A stretch of DNA of 64,000 nucleotides, from assembly GCF_900109145.1 (NCBI RefSeq), contig NZ_FNYY01000006.1, positions 124,001-188,000 on the forward strand, written 5' to 3'. Below are positions 7,217 through 53,988 of this stretch, in pieces; positions within the stretch are counted from its first letter, which is position 1, and each line of letters begins with the position of its first letter. The notes under the pieces are model-generated. The model was not told the DNA's origin. It did not search any database and was given only the letters and a program-made list of their open reading frames with translations. A program made the translations under genes and the position numbers. The DNA comes from Marinovum algicola. Its GTDB lineage: Bacteria; Pseudomonadota; Alphaproteobacteria; Rhodobacterales; Rhodobacteraceae.

Positions 7217-8485
7217 TTACCGGAAGAGCGACAGGAGCTGCTGCGGCGCCTGATTGGCGATCGAAAGCGCCTGCACACCCAGTTGCTGCTGCACCTGAAG
7301 GGCCTGGAGGCGGGCCGAGGCCTCTTCCATGTCGGCGTCCACCAGGCTGCCAATGCCCGAGGTCAGTGAATCGGCCAGGTTCATGATGAAGTCCGATTGG
7401 GTCTCGATCCGGCTTTCGACCGAGCCGAAGGCCGCCGCGGCTGACGTGGCCGCCTGGATCATGCCTTCGATATTGCCCAGCGCGGTTTCCGCGCCGGCCT
7501 CGGTCGAGACATCCATGCTGGACAGCTGCGCCAGGGCGCCGGTGCCGCGTTCCTGGGTCAGCGTGACGCCGATGCCGGTCTCGGAAGTGAGGTTCTCGAC
7601 ATCGAGCGTGCCCGCCCCGAGCGTCAGCGAGAAGTCGTTGGTATCGAGCCCGGCTTGCAGCATGCCGTTTTTCAGACCGGCCAGGACGGCATTTGCATTG
7701 TCGCCTTCCCGAACGACATAGCTGCCCTCGATATTGCCGATTTGCAGACGCATGGTATCGCCGGCGACAAGGCCGGTGGTGACCGCATTGTCGACACCCG
7801 CGTCAGAGGCCTTGAGCGCCGACGTGCCGGTTGCGCCGCCGCTCGTGTCAAGGAAGGCCGAGCCGAGCGCGATCTGGACATCGTCGTCGGTGCCGCCGTT
7901 TTCGTCCAGCGATGCGGTGTCGGCGGTGGCCGCCGTGATCGTCGTGCCGGTATCTGTCGACAGGTTCTGAGCATCGACGCCGATGTTGGACACGCTGATC
8001 GCGCCGGAATTGTCTCGGTCCAGCGACGACAGCACATCGGCGCCGAGATTGCCGTTGGAGTTGAAGGCGCCGGCCGTGCCGTTGACCAGATTCAATCCGT
8101 TGAACTGCGCGGCGCCGACCACCGATTCGATCTGGCCGATGATGGCCTGGACGTCGTCCTGAAGCGTTCCGCGATCGAGATTGTCCGCCTGGGCGCTGAC
8201 AATCAGATCCTTCATGTCGGTCAGAAGATCTGTGACGGTCTCGGAAGCGTTCCGCGCGACAGCCACGGTCGATTGGCCCAGCGAGAGATTCTCGCCGATC
8301 GACTTGAAGCCTTGCACATCGGATTCCATGACTTTGGAAATTGCCCAGATCGCGGCGTTGTCCTTGGCATTGGCCACCGATTTACCGGTCGAAATTTCCG
8401 ATTGCACATCCGAAAGGCTTTTGTTGATCCCCTTGAGGGTTTGAAGCGCGACCATTGCGCTGGAGTTGGTCAGAATACTGGACAT
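7217..8485 (-). CDS. fliC: Flagellin
   Basis: This is the filament subunit, 422 residues. The N-terminal D0/D1 region (about 1-140) begins MSSILTNSSAMVALQTLKGI and includes SEISTGKSVANAKDNAAIWA; the C-terminal D1/D0 region (about 335-422) ends QALSIANQAPQQLLSLFR. The middle (about 150-330) is a variable domain rich in Gly, Thr, Asp and Ala with no Cys. The start has GAGGA six bases upstream. A hairpin follows the gene, and flaF-flbT lie downstream, the usual alphaproteobacterial arrangement. Confidence 0.95.
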   Translation of the reverse strand: MSSILTNSSAMVALQTLKGINKSLSDVQSEISTGKSVANAKDNAAIWAISKVMESDVQGFKSIGENLSLGQSTVAVARNASETVTDLLTDMKDLIVSAQADNLDRGTLQDDVQAIIGQIESVVGAAQFNGLNLVNGTAGAFNSNGNLGADVLSSLDRDNSGAISVSNIGVDAQNLSTDTGTTITAATADTASLDENGGTDDDVQIALGSAFLDTSGGATGTSALKASDAGVDNAVTTGLVAGDTMRLQIGNIEGSYVVREGDNANAVLAGLKNGMLQAGLDTNDFSLTLGAGTLDVENLTSETGIGVTLTQERGTGALAQLSSMDVSTEAGAETALGNIEGMIQAATSAAAAFGSVESRIETQSDFIMNLADSLTSGIGSLVDADMEEASARLQALQVQQQLGVQALSIANQAPQQLLSLFR

Positions 8486-8636
8486 AGATTATCCTCATAA
8501 GCGAGACGCTTTTGCGTCAATTTCATGCCACAGCCGGTCTCCCGGCATCTCTGTCATTCTGACACTTGCAATCTGCACGAACTTCGCGTTGATTGCGCCA
8601 CCATCAGGGGTGCATCGCCACCATGGAGCCGTTGTC

Positions 8637-8651
8637 CTAAGGGTTTGCTAA
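8637..8651 (-). promoter_or_regulatory. Candidate CtrA-type site upstream of flagellin
   Basis: On the minus strand the 205-base gap upstream of flagellin has TTAG-N7-TTAG, with the spacing of the CtrA consensus TTAA-N7-TTAA and two mismatches. It lies about 150 bases upstream of the flagellin ATG, and the gap also contains the 3' side of the flgN-like gene. I could not identify a convincing sigma-28 or sigma-54 promoter in this gap. Confidence 0.28.
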
Positions 8652-8690
8652 TGCGTGCCTCATTGTTTGGCAGGATTCGCCTAAAAACGG

Positions 8691-9047
8691 TCAGGCCCGT
8701 TTTTCAAGCCGGCCTCCGGGGGATATATCGATCATCTTGCGCCGGCCGGAGCGGTCATAGGTCTCAAGCGACCTGCGCACCTTTCGAATCGCTGCGAATC
8801 TCTGTGCGACGGCCTCGATCCCCTTCATGGCGCTTTCAATAAGTTCTTGATTACGAGTGATTTTGATGCGAATCTCGTCAAGCCCTTCGGTGTCGGAGGC
8901 GGCGCATTCAGCCAGGTCACGCAGCAATTTCTCCTTGGTGTCGAGCACGCGCCCCACGGCATCAATGTCGCCCGCGAGAAGCGCCGCCCGCTCGGTCTCC
9001 AGAAGATCGTTCAATTCGTCCAGAATTGCTATGTCGCGATCAGCCAT
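8691..9047 (-). CDS. FlgN-like flagellar export chaperone
   Basis: The 118-residue product is almost entirely helical, starting MADRDIAILDELNDLLETER, with a Lys/Arg-rich tail. Size, the repeated E/L/A heptad pattern and position next to the rod-binding protein gene fit FlgN, the chaperone for hook-filament junction proteins FlgK and FlgL. FlgN sequences diverge strongly, so the assignment relies on context and shape. It overlaps the upstream flgJ-type gene by 8 bases. Confidence 0.65.
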   Translation of the reverse strand: MADRDIAILDELNDLLETERAALLAGDIDAVGRVLDTKEKLLRDLAECAASDTEGLDEIRIKITRNQELIESAMKGIEAVAQRFAAIRKVRRSLETYDRSGRRKMIDISPGGRLEKRA

Positions 9048-9321
9048 TTTCGGCCTCGATCATCGTTTTGACGAACGCTTCGCTCAGCCCCAATCCACCG
9101 GCTTCGACCATCGCATTCGCCTGCGCGCGAACGAGAAACGATGAGAATTGTTCTTCTCCTATTCCACCGTTGAAACTGTCCGGTTGTCTGCCGAATCCGG
9201 CGGATTTCAACATTTCCGCCAAAAACGTCACTTCCAATTCATGCGCCACTTGCCTTGCTTCTTCGGAGGTGGCTGGTTGCCGGGCCACATGTGGGCCAAT
9301 TGGCTGAATCAATAATGACAT
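9040..9321 (-). CDS. FlgJ-type rod-binding protein (no muramidase domain)
   Basis: The product (93 residues from the ATG at 9321) matches the N-terminal rod-binding domain of FlgJ: ELEVTFLAEMLKSAGF, then EEQFSSFLVRAQANAMVEAGGLGLSEAF. The C-terminal peptidoglycan hydrolase domain of enterobacterial FlgJ is absent, as usual in alphaproteobacteria, where a separate enzyme cuts the wall. A longer reading from 9357 would use TTG; the ATG has GAGGA about 8 bases upstream. Likely exported to cap or guide rod assembly. Confidence 0.85.
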   Translation of the reverse strand: MSLLIQPIGPHVARQPATSEEARQVAHELEVTFLAEMLKSAGFGRQPDSFNGGIGEEQFSSFLVRAQANAMVEAGGLGLSEAFVKTMIEAENG

Positions 9322-9372
9322 TGGGCAGTCCTCACAAATTGTTCCGGTTTTTTCCAATTTGCCGCAGGACCG

Positions 9373-9387
9373 GTAAAGAACTGGTAA
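9373..9387 (-). promoter_or_regulatory. Candidate CtrA-type site between flgJ-type gene and fliK
   Basis: On the minus strand the divergent gap has TTAC-N7-TTAC, with the spacing of the CtrA consensus TTAA-N7-TTAA. It lies 52 bases upstream of the flgJ-type start and 50 bases upstream of fliK, a position from which it could control both. Two positions differ from consensus. Confidence 0.3.
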
Positions 9388-9436
9388 CCGTCATGGCGGA
9401 TAAAGGCTGGAGTTGGGAAGAATTCCTGGAGTCCTT

Positions 9437-12367
9437 ATGCAAATTGAATCGATTTCCGGCGGCCTCGGGTTTCTGCGCGCTGTGCCGAAGCTCGAAGGTC
9501 TCCCTCCGGGCGCGGAGCGAACGGTCAGCTTCAGCCAGATGTTCCTGACTGGCCGGAGCGCCTTTGCTGACAAGGAGAAGGGCAACGCAGCCGCTCCTGG
9601 CGTTGGGGGAACGGGGGCTGCGCCTGATCGGAAGGGTTCGGATGCAACCGCCCCGGAGGCGGCCGTCGCCGAATTGGCCCAGCCCCCTTCCGCCAAGGTG
9701 AGCCCGCCCGAAACGATCGGGCCTGCACCGGAAGGCCGGGAAATCGCGGCGGACAAGGCTGATGCCAAGACGGTGGCCACCCTGTCCGCCGTGCCCGAGG
9801 CGGAGAGCAGCGGGTCGACCTGGCCTTTGCCTGCGGATCGGCCCGTGCAACCCGAAGCGGATTTCCTTGCCGATGGGAATATCGCTGCACGCCGTGGCGG
9901 CGACGGCTTGTCGACACAGCCGCCCGCCTTGCTGTCCGGCAACGGGGATGCGCCCGATGCAAAGTTACTAGGGCCGGTTGAGCAGACGCCGAAACCGCGG
10001 GGGCAAGGCGCTGACATGGACGCCGATACGCGGATGGCTATGTCGCGTCAACCTATTGAAGAATTGAAGAAAAACTCGGAATCTCCGACGGATTCGAATT
10101 GGAGGGAAAAGCCCGATCAGGCGGAACGTGCCTTCCGAAAAATCGATCCCTCGGAAACGGACTCCGCGCGCGGGCGCGTGCCGGATATGATTGTGCGCGC
10201 CGCCGCGGTGGAAACCAGGAATTCCTCTCGCATTGCGCCGCTGACGAGTGGCAAGCCGGCACCGCACAATTGGCCCGGACGCTCGGTTGGGCCGGAGCCC
10301 GCAGCGGCGCAACCGGCATTGGCTGATCGGCGCGCCGCCGGTGAGGCTCGCGCAGTCACGGACACGGCGATGGGCGCAGAGCGCGCCCCGAGGCAGATGA
10401 CCGCCATGCCATCGGAGCCCCTGCCGATAATTTCTGAACCGAGCCGGAAGGATGCGCGCGCGGCTTCGGGCCGCTCCGCACAGGCTTCATCTTCCCGGCC
10501 GCCTCGCGAGCCCACCGAGGTGAAATCCCCGCCGCAACAATGGCTCCAGCCGACAGACCGACAAAACACCCATGTCCCGCCTGCGGGTTCTAGTCGGTCG
10601 GCGCAGGGCGCGGAAATGCCGGATGACAGCCCCGGACATCGCAATCCGCTGTCGCAGGAGGAGGCGGTTCTTTTTCCGGCGGCAACTGCTGAACCGAAGC
10701 CGAACCCGGGGCGGGGTGCGACGGATGTGTCGGACCCGCGTTACGGCTATTCCACCCAGAACGGATCACCACGGCGCGCCGCCGTTCCGGCGCTGACGAT
10801 CCCGTCGAGCGAAGCTAGGTCAAGCGAGGTGAAACACCCGAGGTCGATGCGGCCGGCAGAACCGGAAAGCACTGGGGATATGTCGAATTTTCGGCGCGTT
10901 AGATCTCCGATGATGGCGGCTATTGGGGGCTCTGCTCTATCGGAGGGGGCATCTGGGCCGCCGTCCGCAAATTCTGCCCGAGATTTGGCCGGGCCGCGGG
11001 AACGGCCTTCGACGGAAATGATGGCCGGCGCCGAGGGCAAGACGACAGCGGCCGGGAGTAGTGCAGAGAAGAGCGGCGCCATCTCGCGGCCTCCGGGCGA
11101 CATTCCGCAGCCGGCTGCGGCGCCGGTCAAAGCGGCGGAGGCGAACCGGGGTGGGGGGGCTCGCTTTCCGGCAAATGAATACTTCTTCGAGCCGGACCAC
11201 CCGCGCCCAAAGGCCGTCCCGCGTGACGTGCAGACCGACGGCGCGCAGCTGCATTTTCGCGACCGGAACCCCCGGCTTGCCGCCATTTCAGCAGACCGAG
11301 CAACGCGCGAACAGCCCGCTGAAACCGAGCCAATGGCGCGCGAGTCCCCTGACCCTGGCCGGGCGGGGCGTCGCGCCGGGCGGGACGTTCCAACTTCGGC
11401 ACCGATGTCCGGGGCGTCCGGTGTGGTGGCGAGCCTCCCGTGGGCAAATTCCTCTGGCGGTGCCGGGACAGGCGACAAGTTTGTCGCCAGGTCAGCTGCC
11501 GATCCGGCTGCCTTTCCGCCCCGCAATGGCCTAAGCGGGCCAGACGAAACCGGCGAGGATGCTCGCAGGCCTGTAACCACAGGTGATCCTGAGGTATCGA
11601 CCCACCGCCAGCGGAGGGAGCCTGCGCCGCGAGGCCTTGATCGGATGGACGCCACGCGCCCAGGGATCTCGACCGGTTTCGACCCCTTGCCCGACCATGT
11701 GTCGACGGGCCTTCAAAATCGGGGTCCCGATCGGGGGGACGAAGCGGAAGCTCCCGGCGACCGGCTTGCAACGGGCCGTGGTGAGTTCTCCGGCCGCCCG
11801 GTTGCCGAGTTGATTGTCAGGGCTGGGGCAGGACAGGTCGCGGCGTCGGACGAGCGGGCCGCCTTGGTGAGCCCGGCCGGTTTTGCGCCAGAGACCCCGA
11901 GCGCGCCACAGGCGGAGAGCCTGCTCAGGCAGAGCGGGTCGCAGGGGCCGCCGACGGCCCACGCCGCGCAGACGATGGCGCGTGAGATTGCCCAGCAGAT
12001 GGCCCCAGTCGTGCGCGCCATGCCCGGCGAATTCACCGAAATCACCCTGCGACCGGAAGAGCTCGGGCGTGTCCAGATGCGGATGCGCGGGCAGGAGGGG
12101 CAGATCCTGCTTCAGGTTGTCACCGAACGGCCCGAAACCCATGATCTCATGCGGCGCCATATCGACGTCGTCGAACGCGCCTTCCGCGACCTCGGATACA
12201 GCGAAATCGCTTTCGAATTCTCCACCTCCGGTCAGAGCAAGCGCCAGCCCTGGTCCGAAATCCCGGCGGGTGACCCGGAAGTTTCGCCAGAAACAGCCGA
12301 GGCGGAGGATGCCGCGCCCGGGCCTGAAACCGAGGGCGCGGCCGCGCGCCTCGATATCCGTGTATAG
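9437..12367 (+). CDS. fliK: Flagellar hook-length control protein FliK, very long
   Basis: FliK measures hook length and switches export from hook to filament proteins. The product has 976 residues from the ATG at 9437 (GGAG five bases upstream; a TTG eight codons earlier is rejected). Only the C-terminal part, about residues 848-930, is a recognisable Flg_hook domain, with EFTEITLRPEELGRVQMRM and a helix ending ERAFRDLGYSEIAFEF. The preceding 840 residues are low-complexity, rich in Pro, Ala, Arg, Ser and Glu, and look disordered. Many family members have 400-600 residues, so this one is unusually long. flgD follows after 9 bases. Confidence 0.88.
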   Translation: MQIESISGGLGFLRAVPKLEGLPPGAERTVSFSQMFLTGRSAFADKEKGNAAAPGVGGTGAAPDRKGSDATAPEAAVAELAQPPSAKVSPPETIGPAPEGREIAADKADAKTVATLSAVPEAESSGSTWPLPADRPVQPEADFLADGNIAARRGGDGLSTQPPALLSGNGDAPDAKLLGPVEQTPKPRGQGADMDADTRMAMSRQPIEELKKNSESPTDSNWREKPDQAERAFRKIDPSETDSARGRVPDMIVRAAAVETRNSSRIAPLTSGKPAPHNWPGRSVGPEPAAAQPALADRRAAGEARAVTDTAMGAERAPRQMTAMPSEPLPIISEPSRKDARAASGRSAQASSSRPPREPTEVKSPPQQWLQPTDRQNTHVPPAGSSRSAQGAEMPDDSPGHRNPLSQEEAVLFPAATAEPKPNPGRGATDVSDPRYGYSTQNGSPRRAAVPALTIPSSEARSSEVKHPRSMRPAEPESTGDMSNFRRVRSPMMAAIGGSALSEGASGPPSANSARDLAGPRERPSTEMMAGAEGKTTAAGSSAEKSGAISRPPGDIPQPAAAPVKAAEANRGGGARFPANEYFFEPDHPRPKAVPRDVQTDGAQLHFRDRNPRLAAISADRATREQPAETEPMARESPDPGRAGRRAGRDVPTSAPMSGASGVVASLPWANSSGGAGTGDKFVARSAADPAAFPPRNGLSGPDETGEDARRPVTTGDPEVSTHRQRREPAPRGLDRMDATRPGISTGFDPLPDHVSTGLQNRGPDRGDEAEAPGDRLATGRGEFSGRPVAELIVRAGAGQVAASDERAALVSPAGFAPETPSAPQAESLLRQSGSQGPPTAHAAQTMAREIAQQMAPVVRAMPGEFTEITLRPEELGRVQMRMRGQEGQILLQVVTERPETHDLMRRHIDVVERAFRDLGYSEIAFEFSTSGQSKRQPWSEIPAGDPEVSPETAEAEDAAPGPETEGAAARLDIRV

Positions 12368-17855: not shown

Positions 17856-18119
17856 ATGGCCAATACGCCCCAGTCCAAGAAACGCGCCCGTCAGAACGAA
17901 AAGCGCTTTGCCGTCAACAAGGCACGCCGTTCGCGCATCCGCACCTATCTGCGCCAGGTCGAAGAGGCGATCGCCTCGGGCGACAAGGATGCGGCAACCA
18001 AGGCACTTCGCGCGGCCCAGCCCGAGCTGATGCGCGGCGTGACCAAAGGCGTCATGCACAAGAACACCGCATCGCGCAAAATGTCGCGTCTGTCGGCACG
18101 GGTCAACGCAATCGGCTAA
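17856..18119 (+). CDS. rpsT: 30S ribosomal protein S20
   Basis: S20 is a primary 16S rRNA-binding protein of the small subunit. The 87-residue, Lys/Arg/Ala-rich helical product starts [18 protein letters not shown], the family signature, and ends with [18 protein letters not shown]. It has a candidate promoter of its own and a strong terminator 28 bases after the stop. Position just upstream of dnaA is conserved in Rhodobacterales. Confidence 0.98.
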
Positions 18120-18171: not shown

Positions 18172-18234
18172 CGTGCAATATCAGTGGGCGCAAATGGGCA
18201 TAGTGGCATTGTTGCACAGGGCTGGGGATTCTTT

Positions 18235-18243
18235 TTATGCACA
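18235..18243 (+). promoter_or_regulatory. DnaA box
   Basis: TTATGCACA is an exact match to the DnaA-box consensus TTATNCACA. It lies 376 bases upstream of the dnaA start. Confidence 0.6.
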
Positions 18244-18364
18244 ACCCGAGTCAACATTTAGTTTCGGTTGCCGCTCTACGTGCGAGGTTGCTAGTTTCGG
18301 TCTTGCGAGTCAGCTCGCACTGGGGGGACAGGCGAAGCCAGTCGATTTGCACCGACTGAATTGA

Positions 18365-18373
18365 TGTGGACAA
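18365..18373 (-). promoter_or_regulatory. Near-consensus DnaA box
   Basis: TTGTCCACA on the minus strand differs by one base from TTATCCACA. It lies 121 bases downstream of the perfect box. Confidence 0.45.
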
Positions 18374-18610
18374 GAGCCGGATACGGCCGTGTTTACAGCA
18401 TATTAGAGCATTGTGCTCGAAGCCATGTCCAAGACGGAAACACAAGGTCGCCAGGCCGAATCTCGGAGTCCATCGGTCTCCGGAGGGGAAAGGTGTTTCT
18501 ATAGGATGGCTGGTGTTGCCGGGTCCGCCCGGTATGGGGACCACCGGTCATATTTTTTAGCGCCGGTAGCCGCGAGGCCGCCGGGTACATGGGAACGGAC
18601 GCAGGGACAC

Positions 18611-20005
18611 ATGACAAAAGACCAGTGGGGAGCACTACAGGGGCAGTTGCGCGAGACCGTTGGAGCAAACAACTTCACCAATTGGATCGAGCCGCTACAA
18701 TTCGAAGGGGTGACGGACGGGGTGGCGCATTTCAATGTGCCGACCAGTTTTCTAGGCAATTACGTTCAGCGCAATTTTGGGGATTTGCTGCTGTATGCTA
18801 TGACCAATGCCGGGGCGGATGTGCGCCGGATCGAGTTTGACGTGCCGGCCAACAAGGCCAGCATGCCGGCGGTGTCGCGTGCAGCGAACACGCCCGACCG
18901 GACCGGACAAACACAAACCAAGGCGACACAGTCGATGACATCACGCGCAGATCTGGCCGACTTGCTGCCCAGCGCGCCTCTCGACAAGCGGTTCACCTTC
19001 GACACCTTTGTCGTCGGCAAGCCGAACGAGCTGGCGCATGCCGCGGCGCGGCGCGTCGGTGAGGGGGGCGAGGTGACATTCAACCCGCTGTTTCTCTATG
19101 GCGGCGTGGGCCTCGGCAAGACGCACCTGATGCATGCCATCGCGTGGGAGCTGAAAAGCCGCTCGCCGCATCTCAACGTGCTCTACCTGTCGGCCGAGCA
19201 GTTCATGTATCGTTTCGTCCAGGCGCTTCGCGACCGCAAAATGATGGATTTCAAACAGATCTTTCGCTCGGTTGATGTGCTGATGGTGGATGACGTCCAG
19301 TTCATCGCCGGCAAGGACAGCACCCAGGAGGAGTTCTTTCACACCTTCAACGCGCTGGTGGATCAGAACAAGCAGATCATCATTTCGGCCGACCGCGCGC
19401 CGGGCGAGATCAAGGATATGGAGAACCGCATCCAGTCGCGGCTGCAATCCGGTCTTGTCGTCGATCTGCACCCGACGGATTACGAATTGCGCCTTGGCAT
19501 CCTGCATTCCAAGCTGGCGACGCACCGGCTGCAATATCCCGAGCTGGAGCTCGACGAGAAGGTGCTCGAATTCCTCGCGCACCGGATCTCGACCAACGTG
19601 CGGGTGCTCGAAGGCGCGCTGACGCGGCTTTTCGCCTTTGCCTCGCTGGTCGGCCGGCCGATCACCATGGAGCTGACGCAGGATTGTCTGGCCGATGTGC
19701 TGCGCGCCTCGGAACGCAAGATCACCATCGAGGAGATCCAGCGCCAGGTGGCCGAGCATTACAACATCCGCATGTCCGAGCTGATCGGGCCGAAGCGGCT
19801 GCGGGTGTTTGCGCGGCCGCGTCAGGTGGCGATGTATCTCTGCAAGCAGCTGACCAGCCGCTCGCTGCCCGAGATCGGCCGCCGCTTTGGCGGGCGGGAC
19901 CACACCACCGTGATGCACGGGGTGCGGCGCATCGAAGAGCTCAAGGTGCAGGACGGCCAGATCGCCGAAGACCTGGAGATGCTGCGCCGGACGCTGGAAG
20001 CGTAG
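18611..20005 (+). CDS. dnaA: Chromosomal replication initiator DnaA
   Basis: DnaA binds DnaA boxes and opens the origin. The 464-residue product from the ATG at 18611 starts MTKDQWGALQGQLRETVGAN (domain I), has a variable linker (about 80-115), and an AAA+ domain with Walker A GGVGLGKT at 164-171 and Walker B VLMVDDVQF. The C-terminal DNA-binding domain has the signature GGRDHTTVMHGVRR. The start is preceded by AGGGA. dnaN follows after 161 bases, the usual core order. Confidence 0.97.
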   Translation: MTKDQWGALQGQLRETVGANNFTNWIEPLQFEGVTDGVAHFNVPTSFLGNYVQRNFGDLLLYAMTNAGADVRRIEFDVPANKASMPAVSRAANTPDRTGQTQTKATQSMTSRADLADLLPSAPLDKRFTFDTFVVGKPNELAHAAARRVGEGGEVTFNPLFLYGGVGLGKTHLMHAIAWELKSRSPHLNVLYLSAEQFMYRFVQALRDRKMMDFKQIFRSVDVLMVDDVQFIAGKDSTQEEFFHTFNALVDQNKQIIISADRAPGEIKDMENRIQSRLQSGLVVDLHPTDYELRLGILHSKLATHRLQYPELELDEKVLEFLAHRISTNVRVLEGALTRLFAFASLVGRPITMELTQDCLADVLRASERKITIEEIQRQVAEHYNIRMSELIGPKRLRVFARPRQVAMYLCKQLTSRSLPEIGRRFGGRDHTTVMHGVRRIEELKVQDGQIAEDLEMLRRTLEA

Positions 20006-52227: not shown

Positions 52228-53988
52228 TCAGAACAGAAAATACCTTTGCGCCATCGGCAGCACCTCGGCCGGCTGGCAGGTCAGCAGCTCGCCGTCGGCG
52301 CGCACCTCGTAGGTTTCGGGATGCACCTCGACCTGAGGTGTGGCGGTGTTGAGTTTCAGGTCCGACTTGCCGATCTTGCGGGTGTTTTCCACCGCCACGG
52401 TCTGCTTCGCCAGGCCCCAGGTGTCGCGGATGCCTTCGGCCTGGGCGGCGGCCGAGACGAAGGTCACCGCGGAGTTCTCGACCGAACGGCCATAGGCGCC
52501 CCACATCGGCCGCGAATAGACCGGCTGCGGCGTCGGGATCGAAGCATTGGGATCGCCCATCTGCGCACAGGCAATGGTGCCGCCGAGCAGGACCATCTCG
52601 GGCTTCACCCCGAAGAACGCCGGGTTCCAGAGCACCAGGTCGGCGCGTTTGCCGACCTCGATCGAGCCGATCTCGTGCGACAGCCCATGCGCGATGGCCG
52701 GGTTGATGGTGTATTTGGCGATATAGCGGCGGACGCGGAAATTGTCGTTGTCGCCGGTCTCCTCGGAGAGCCGCCCGCGCTGTTTCTTCATCTTGTCGGC
52801 GGTCTGCCAGGTGCGGATCAGCACCTCGCCCACCCGGCCCATGGCCTGGCTGTCCGACGCGATGATCGAAAACGCGCCCATGTCGTGCAGGATGTCCTCG
52901 GCGGCGATGGTTTCGCGCCGGATGCGGCTCTCGGCAAAGGCCACATCCTCGGGGATCGACTTGTCGAGGTGGTGACAGACCATGAGCATGTCGAGATGTT
53001 CTTCGAGCGTGTTCACGGTAAACGGCCGCGTCGGGTTGGTCGAAGACGGCAGAACGTGCTCTTCGCCGCAGATCTTGATGATATCGGGGGCGTGGCCGCC
53101 GCCCGCGCCCTCGGTGTGAAAGGCGTGGATGGTGCGGCCTTTCATGGCCTTTACCGTGTGCTCGACAAAGCCGCTCTCGTTGAGCGTATCGGTGTGGATC
53201 ATCACCTGCACGTCCATGTCATCGGCCACGCTCAGGCAGCAGTCGATGGCGCCGGGGGTGGTGCCCCAATCCTCGTGCAGTTTCAGCGCGCAGGCGCCGC
53301 CCTTGACCTGTTCGACCAGCGCTTCGGGCAGTGAGGCATTGCCCTTGCCGGCAAAGGCCAGGTTCATCGGAAAGGCGTCCGCCGCCTGCAACATCCGCCC
53401 CATATGCCAGGGGCCGGGGGTGCAGGTGGTGGCCAGCGTTCCATGCGCCGGGCCGGTGCCGCCGCCCAGCATGGTGGTCAGGCCGGAATGCAGCGCATCC
53501 TCGATCTGCTGCGGGCAGATGAAATGAATGTGGCTGTCGAAACCGCCGGCGGTCAGGATGCGGCCTTCGCCGGCGATTACCTCGGTGCCGGGCCCGACGA
53601 TGATGGTCACGCCGGGCTGGGTGTCGGGGTTGCCGGCCTTGCCGATGGCGGCGATCCGGCCGTCTTTCAGGCCGACATCGGCTTTCACGATGCCGGTGTG
53701 ATCCACGATCAGCGCATTGGTGATGACGGTATCCACCGCACCGCCGGCCTGCGTGACCTGGGCTTGGCCCATGCCATCACGGATCACCTTGCCGCCGCCG
53801 AACTTGACCTCTTCACCGTAGGCGAGGGCGTTCCGACCCTCGCCCCCGGTGAGCGCGGCCCCGGCCTGCTCGGCGGTGAGGTCGCGTTCGACTTCGATGA
53901 TCAGGTCGGTATCGGCCAGCCGCAGGCGGTCGCCGACGGTGGGGCCGAACATGGCGGCGTAATCGGAGCGTTTGATCGTGGCGGGCAT
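52228..53988 (-). CDS. ureC: Urease alpha subunit UreC
   Basis: UreC carries the nickel active site that hydrolyses urea to ammonia and carbamate. The 586-residue product has all expected active-site residues: His153 and His155 (HIHF), the carbamylated Lys236 (ALKLHEDWG), His238, His265, His291, the flap Cys338 and His339 ([12 protein letters not shown]), and Asp379. Length is slightly above the usual 565-570. It starts one base after the ureB stop. Confidence 0.98.

Follow-up and report, generated by a model that had tools for sequence, protein, structure and literature searches.

The dnaA gene (18611..20005, + strand, 464 aa) lies in a 64-kb stretch of DNA, hereafter the window, which corresponds to positions 124001-188000 of contig C38 in a Rhodobacteraceae genome of 62 contigs and 5.40 Mb. 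The closest relatives of its product in the named collection are the DnaA proteins of Phaeobacter sp. J2-8, a Rhodobacteraceae MAG, and Primorskyibacter aestuariivivens (87-90% identity). The gene located 5' of dnaA (17856..18119, + strand), which from its protein sequence we take to be rpsT, encoding ribosomal protein S20, is separated from dnaA by 491 bp, and a cluster of GANTC sites falls inside this gap. As described in the first-pass annotation, five GANTC sites are present within the 244 bp of 18227-18470 (at 18227, 18248, 18307, 18458, and 18466), and its figure of about one expected site is right by local composition (0.94 mononucleotide, 1.15 dinucleotide); at the real density of the window, the expectation is about 0.27 per 244 bp. 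GANTC is strongly avoided in the window (70 observed versus 289 in shuffles), of which 18227-18470 is the densest 244-bp GANTC cluster; with 70 sites placed at random, at least five fell together in some 244 bp in 0.85% of 20,000 trials. Genome-wide avoidance and intergenic enrichment of GANTC have already been published for Alphaproteobacteria (PMC3973325). At gathering scores, no Rfam family was matched in the cluster region. An in-frame upstream extension of DnaA (ORF from 18413) was rejected, as its length differs among relatives.

The first three sites (18227, 18248, and 18307) are part of an element of about 105 bp between rpsT and dnaA, and conservation in relatives was found for these three and not for the sites at 18458 and 18466. 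GANTC4 (18458..18462, + strand) and GANTC5 (18466..18470, + strand) are located outside the conserved element: CCGANTC is placed like GANTC4 in all four genus members (the window, L002, L003, and L004), at -153 to -162 from the ATG, so that GANTC4 is held at genus level only, and GANTC5 is found in the window alone among these four. The exact GANTC trio, with spacings of about 21 and then 58-59 bp, is present in 83 and absent in 15 of 98 intergenic regions of at least 300 bp lying 5' of dnaA, four of which are duplicated through the use of two collections.

For the ~105-bp core, a model relying on sequence alone (R1) was derived from 54 of the 80 distinct sequences that carry the trio; it is thus biased to GANTC. 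Searched under Infernal's stricter filters against 196 sampled genomes of the order, all within one GTDB family, it detected the element once per genome in 192 genomes and in 86 of 88 genera, with no element in G067, G167, G198, and G199. The genome studied here holds a single copy even with the E-value limit raised to 10, in a search that scored 150 of 658 first-look candidates. Among 140 genomes of the class, a set that excludes our own genome and one family member (25 are named, all outside the family, and the other 115 are assumed to be outside likewise), five gave weak R1 matches (E 0.006-0.09), which are not above chance at that threshold and show no dnaA in the fetched locus. At 31 element loci, comprising our own genome and the 30 best hits, dnaA adjoins the element in 28 and the contig ends in three, and rpsT is reported at 29.

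Column, tree, and spacing counts are based on alignment A2, which contains 93 matches obtained from the window plus 94 of 110 dnaA loci (95 sources) and includes regions without the trio; five of its rows are cut off at site 1. The sources omit L009, which lies at a contig start; L082-L085, which duplicate the window and L002-L004; and eleven loci that are either oppositely oriented or truncated by a contig end. When re-checked, ten of these eleven matched R1 and L096, which is without upstream DNA, did not, and the contig end of G006 upstream of its dnaA also gave a match; these 11 late matches stay outside the column counts. L110 and L111 had no R1 match. Loci in the other orientation are also omitted from the intergenic trio, conservation, and DnaA-box counts.

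According to the column counts, the 93 rows share one order of blocks: GATTCTTTT, a variable stretch, GAGTCAAG, a short variable stretch, GAAGWTC, GTTGC, a variable spacer, TTGnTA, 10 or 11 bases, GCGANTC, about three bases, TCGC, and then TGGGGGGACAGG. GANTC1 (GATTC, 18227..18231, + strand), at a predicted -77 to -73, reads GANTC in 87 of 88 alignable rows, the five cut-off rows being additional; GANTC2 (GAGTC, within GAGTCAAS, 18248..18252, + strand) starts 21 bp after it in the window, at a predicted -56 to -52, and reads GANTC in 86 of 91 alignable rows. The two lie upstream, two helical turns apart, with distances of 20, 21, and 22 bp in 27, 54, and 6 of 87 rows. They are followed by a proximal upstream block (18259..18265, + strand; consensus GAAGWTC by column counts), the window copy of which, TAGTTTC, is divergent; a -35 element, TTGCCG (18268..18273, + strand), with T, T, and G in 93, 90, and 93 of 93 rows; and an extended -10, TG-C-TAGTTT (18289..18297, + strand), with T in 92 and G in 93 rows at 18289-18290 and TA in 93/93 at 18292-18293. 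The spacer from the -35 hexamer to the -10 is 18 bp in all 93 aligned rows, and the bases between GTTGC and TGnTA have each undergone 23-42 inferred changes with no gain or loss. A regular expression applied to unaligned rows returned 18 bp in 75 of 89 and larger values in 14, which we take to be matches to another TTG. A strict sigma-70 consensus scan found no promoter on either strand. Because TTG and TGnTA are conserved at a constant 18-bp spacing of freely changing sequence, the element reads as a sigma-70 promoter with an extended -10. None of the three GANTC sites lies between the -10 and the -35.

From the position of the -10, transcription should start at the base before GCGA or at its G, that is, at about 18304 (18303..18305, + strand); the distance from TA to GCGA is 10 or 11 nt in 89 of 93 rows. 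GANTC3 (GAGTC, 18307..18311, + strand) would then occupy about +4 to +8; it reads GANTC in 89 of 93 rows and follows GANTC2 at 58 or 59 bp in 84 of 91. It is contained in a putative 5'-terminal hairpin, GCGA-GTCAGC-TCGC (18305..18318, + strand), the four stem pairs of which are standard in 99.2% of cells, mostly without variation. Covariation in the stem was not above that of shuffled alignments (117 of 500 shuffles were as high), and a 5' mRNA hairpin is plausible, not proven. The predicted dnaA leader (18304..18610, + strand; about 307 nt from the inferred start to the ATG) is poorly conserved in sequence and, measured from the end of the G tract to the ATG, is 175-419 nt long in 79 relatives. 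The G tract TGGGGGGACAGG (18321..18332, + strand) at the start of this leader resembles the dnaA ribosome-binding site (18601-18610 in the window); in 25 of 94 relatives, GGGACA[GA] lies no more than 12 nt from the ATG. The G tract may be read as a decoy, a standby site, or the common target of an antisense RNA. A leader peptide after the G tract was rejected, a start codon being present within the next 12 nt in just 14 of 69 regions.

Changes at the three sites were counted by parsimony on a tree of DnaA proteins with alignment A2. For the positions G, A, N, T, and C, the counts are 0, 0, 0, 0, and 2 at site 1; 3, 3, 0, 0, and 0 at site 2; and 0, 1, 14, 0, and 2 at site 3. Since the middle base of site 3 is free (at least 14 changes) and the other four, which define the motif, are held (three changes together), the GANTC motif is itself under selection there. 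The T and C of site 3 lie in the hairpin loop, and the stem does not account for them. The middle base is T at site 1, G at site 2, and T or G in 86 of 93 rows at site 3. L002, which belongs to the window's genus, has lost site 1, and L031, L060, L078, and L094 have lost site 3; at site 2, GA is lost in L027, L064, L098, L099, and L106 (and, by eye, in L107), and GTCAA is kept in 93/93 rows. The fixed middle bases of sites 1 and 2, together with GTCAA outlasting GA, suggest a reader of more than GANTC at these positions, and methylation there may be incidental. Such conservation of extra bases fits a methylation-sensing factor with its own preference, and an ordinary factor is a live rival. 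GANTC reaches about 29 per kb in the core (280 sites in the 88 regions with an anchor; 6 of 94 are without one) and 2.5 per kb in the rest of the same dnaA-upstream regions, which is below the whole-region shuffled mean of 3.7 per kb (178 in 48,058 bp). Selection thus holds GANTC in the promoter, clearly so at site 3, and sites 1 and 2 hold other bases as well.

A RAMA domain (PF18755) was matched in all 31 genomes examined, including our own, where the open frame is 395 aa; the CcrM-type assignment was made from this domain. GcrA matches were also obtained in all 31. The flanks of the three dnaA sites depart from YGAKTCK, the motif known for GcrA in Caulobacter: A precedes site 1 in 80 of 85 rows, follows site 2 in 93 of 93, and follows site 3 in 81 of 92. 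For comparison, GANTC was counted within 200 bp 5' of readable start codons at 33 loci each of ccrM and gcrA. At least one site is present upstream of ccrM in 31/31 loci and at least two in 30/31 (two loci unread), and gcrA has a site in 7 of 28 (five unread), a count that distant gcrA sites would escape, given that the dnaA triad itself is about 300-380 bp from the ATG. A separate GANTC triad is found upstream of ccrM in 27 of 31 loci, with the sites exactly 23 and 11 bp apart in 22 and one of them between an apparent -35 (TTGAC) and -10. This triad was seen around TTGAC-N17-CATCCT with TTGATTCAAAAAA upstream (L116-L119, L247-L275), and a single site, GATTCG, is present about 105 bp 5' of gcrA at the same distance in three genus members (L113-L115). 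Work on a Paracoccus demonstrated that its CcrM methylates GANTC and is indispensable (PMC3925955), GANTC was reported to be enriched near ori and ter in Dinoroseobacter (PMC6473078), and PMC2877005 counts GANTC upstream of cell-cycle genes without drawing a conclusion.

The one perfect and one near-perfect DnaA box reported earlier were confirmed. The perfect box TTATGCACA (18235..18243, + strand) lies between GANTC1 and GANTC2 and is the sole zero-mismatch TTATNCACA in the 64 kb, and the near-perfect DnaA-box-like TTGTCCACA is at 18365..18373 (- strand); neither was seen in the three congeners, and boxes with at most one mismatch are no commoner in the window than chance predicts (9 against 9.9). 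Among 94 distinct dnaA-upstream regions, a perfect TTATNCACA is present in 4 (0.67 expected), and 40 boxes with at most one mismatch are found in 32 (expected 24.9 in 21.6). Of 38 placeable boxes, 23 fall -45 to -15 of GTCAA, i.e., around GANTC1; nine of these share one form and seven another, each partly common to relatives. DnaA autoregulation, as the first-pass annotation had suggested, is weakened by these data, the window's boxes not being conserved even within the genus and the box-like enrichment near GANTC1 being mild and spread over several lineages. Autoregulation through conserved DnaA boxes was accordingly rejected as a conserved feature and is kept as a possibility for single lineages, among which DnaA binding here may have been gained and lost.

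The origin was sought by means of parS (TGTTTCACGTGAAACA), hemE, GC skew, and GGGNAGGG skew. In our own genome, parS is 55 kb from the element. In eight relatives, the distance is 84 kb (G006), 104 kb (G101), 119 kb (G133), 188 kb (G021), 210 kb (G016), 315 kb (G012), 478 kb (G208), and 644 kb (G074), the single contigs of G006 and G074 being treated as circular; G062 and G078, which also carry both the element and parS, were left out of this list. The element thus travels with dnaA and not with parS. GC skew, sampled in G006, G074, and our own contig, is noisy and makes no clear turn at dnaA. As a guide to oriC, hemE was discarded: among the seven relatives where a single contig carries both hemE and parS, the distance between them exceeds 170 kb in six and is 4 kb in the seventh, G198, a genome in which no element was found. 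In sampled stretches of G006, GANTC was counted at 43-45 per 20 kb in 3440001-3480000 and 3538758-3558757, near parS and just before dnaA, at 39 in one other stretch, and at 13-31 nearly throughout the rest. That the region is the chromosomal origin or a part of it, as had been raised in the earlier annotation, finds some favor in its perfect DnaA box and in its GANTC sites, which are also present in alphaproteobacterial origins. The dnaA gene has also been reported near ori in Rhodobacterales (PMC8116508). However, the DnaA boxes are neither conserved nor clustered, and the element stays with dnaA at the above distances from parS, with no clear turn in the noisy skew, so that an origin at this place is extremely improbable.

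The object at this locus is therefore larger and more precise than a cluster of sites: it reads as a family-wide dnaA promoter with three GANTC in nearly fixed places. Its anatomy, its conservation, its single-copy link to dnaA, and the presence of CcrM-type and GcrA genes are established. The control of dnaA by methylation, on the model of Caulobacter, remains the best reading of the cluster as far as the three 5' sites are concerned, as these are conserved on an apparent promoter in a group where CcrM-type and GcrA matches were both found in 31/31 genomes. We consider it fairly probable, judging from sequence, that the element is a CcrM-methylation-responsive dnaA promoter with a new layout. 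This reading is favored because the element is present as one copy in 192/196 genomes and adjoins dnaA, its spacer is fixed at 18 bp, GANTC3 shows at least 14 changes at its middle base versus 3 at the others, and GANTC is dense in the core; the ccrM triad and the published work on CcrM in a Paracoccus and on the Caulobacter dnaA promoter point the same way. Weighing against it are the unchanged middle bases of sites 1 and 2, the persistence of GTCAA where GA is lost, flanks unlike the GcrA motif, the lack of a GANTC between the -10 and the -35, the negative strict promoter scan, hairpin covariation at the shuffled level, and the published doubts discussed below on methylation control in Rhodobacterales and on some earlier Caulobacter effects.

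Besides an origin, three other explanations were weighed against it. A sequence-specific transcription factor could use the two upstream sites, GATTCTTTT and GAGTCAAG at a distance of 21 bp, as operator half-sites, their fit to GANTC being incidental and methylation having no role. The unchanged middle base at sites 1 and 2, the persistence of GTCAA in every row though GA is lost in five, and the conservation of the flanks TTT and AAG are all in line with such a factor, but a methylation-sensing factor could equally read extra bases. An ordinary operator would also leave unexplained GANTC3, where the non-N bases alone are held, and sits poorly with a GANTC1 that is complete in 87/88 rows when GANTC is strongly avoided elsewhere in the window; on balance, this explanation is somewhat unlikely. 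Alternatively, GANTC3 may be kept for a 5' RNA hairpin and its loop instead of DNA methylation. The nearly always standard GCGA/TCGC stem and the conserved loop TC with the following A are what an RNA could require; the covariation, however, is no better than shuffled, and it is precisely the TC needed to complete GANTC that is retained in the loop, against at least 14 changes of the middle base, so that we regard this as unlikely.

It is also conceivable that a divergent minus-strand promoter, with site 2 as its -35 (TTGACT) and site 1 as its -10 (GAATCT), competes with the dnaA promoter or makes an RNA towards rpsT. GTCAA is TTGAC on that strand, in 93/93 rows, and site 1-2 distances of 20, 21, and 22 bp would give spacers of 16, 17, and 18. 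The match to a -10 is nevertheless poor, with an invariant G as the first base and with the less critical -10 bases fixed, unlike in a usual -10; little is conserved further left except the rpsT terminator region, and the strict scan was negative on both strands. Such a promoter is thus decidedly unlikely.

Beyond the anatomy, we infer promoter function, the start site, methylation of the sites, a reader, and the direction of the effect. In the preferred reading of a methylation-responsive promoter, the housekeeping sigma factor would use TTG as the -35 and TGnTA as the extended -10, and an mRNA from about 18304 would begin with a small 5' hairpin followed by a leader some 300 nt long. Two of the GANTC sites, at about -75 and -54, would serve as operators on one helix face, with the third at the first transcribed bases, and all three would be methylated by CcrM. 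Passage of the fork through dnaA would leave the sites hemimethylated until CcrM returns, and promoter activity would differ between the two states by means of a reader, which might be GcrA or another factor or, at the third site, the polymerase itself. Such two-state activity could limit or time DnaA synthesis after initiation. Replication may in this way signal when the cell makes more initiator, through three methylation sites in the dnaA promoter.

A comparable period after replication is found in E. coli, where dnaA and oriC are under Dam/SeqA control; the hemimethylated period could likewise limit DnaA synthesis here, with a different methyltransferase and motif. In Caulobacter crescentus, the dnaA promoter has a GANTC whose methylation state affects transcription (PMC3973325, PMC4287350), whereas the triad here is nearly fixed in position, its third site falling within the first transcribed bases and the other two far upstream. 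According to PMC3973325, the change from full to hemimethylated GANTC causes a small but significant change in the activity of the Caulobacter dnaA promoter, and some effects reported earlier were not significant in its ccrM deletion. The GcrA-dependent methylated sigma-70 promoters are similar in that GcrA is matched in 31/31 genomes and the middle bases are T, G, and T/G, but their YGAKTCK motif (PMC7987155) is not matched at the flanks here and no site is located between the -10 and -35. The ccrM triad of Rhodobacterales also places three GANTC upstream of a gene of the same circuit, and its TTGATTCAAAAAA resembles the reverse complement of AGATTCTTTTT; it differs in that the sites are inside or beside the apparent -35/-10 region, at 23 and 11 bp in 22/31 loci. 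No published description of the element or of such a layout was found in the literature searched, which was mostly without subscription papers.

From the case of ctrA, where the motif is present in 45% of promoters only, PMC8116508 suggests that replication-linked methylation may lack a major role in gene control in Rhodobacterales; our observations on dnaA and ccrM suggest otherwise. A more speculative proposal, which is possible if doubtful, is that Rhodobacteraceae have a two-gene replication clock built on the GANTC triads at dnaA and ccrM and largely bypassing gcrA and ctrA. In this proposal, a reader with its own extended motif would bind the two same-face upstream sites, and methylation of the third site, in the initially transcribed hairpin, would affect promoter escape or the earliest transcription steps. 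There are few bacteria in which the feedback of replication on DnaA synthesis has been worked out in detail. So tightly held a family-wide promoter gives the exact bases to mutate and predicts that dnaA and ccrM, more than gcrA and ctrA, are the replication-timed genes of the family. If this is true, the view based on ctrA, in which GANTC methylation is of little importance to gene control in Rhodobacterales, would need correction.

Finally, two further features were observed in the window. A strong Rfam match (136.5 bits) to the 5' ureB sRNA (RF02514) is present at 53497-53784, and perhaps merely reflects an overlap of this Rfam family with conserved urease coding sequence. A second GANTC-rich stretch at 8089-9450, where eight sites fall in the 800 bp starting at 8089 and eight in those starting at 8674, covers a gene that by eye is flagellin-like (7217-8485, minus strand) and its upstream region, and contains pairs of GANTC 35 bp apart at 8089/8124 and 8287/8322.
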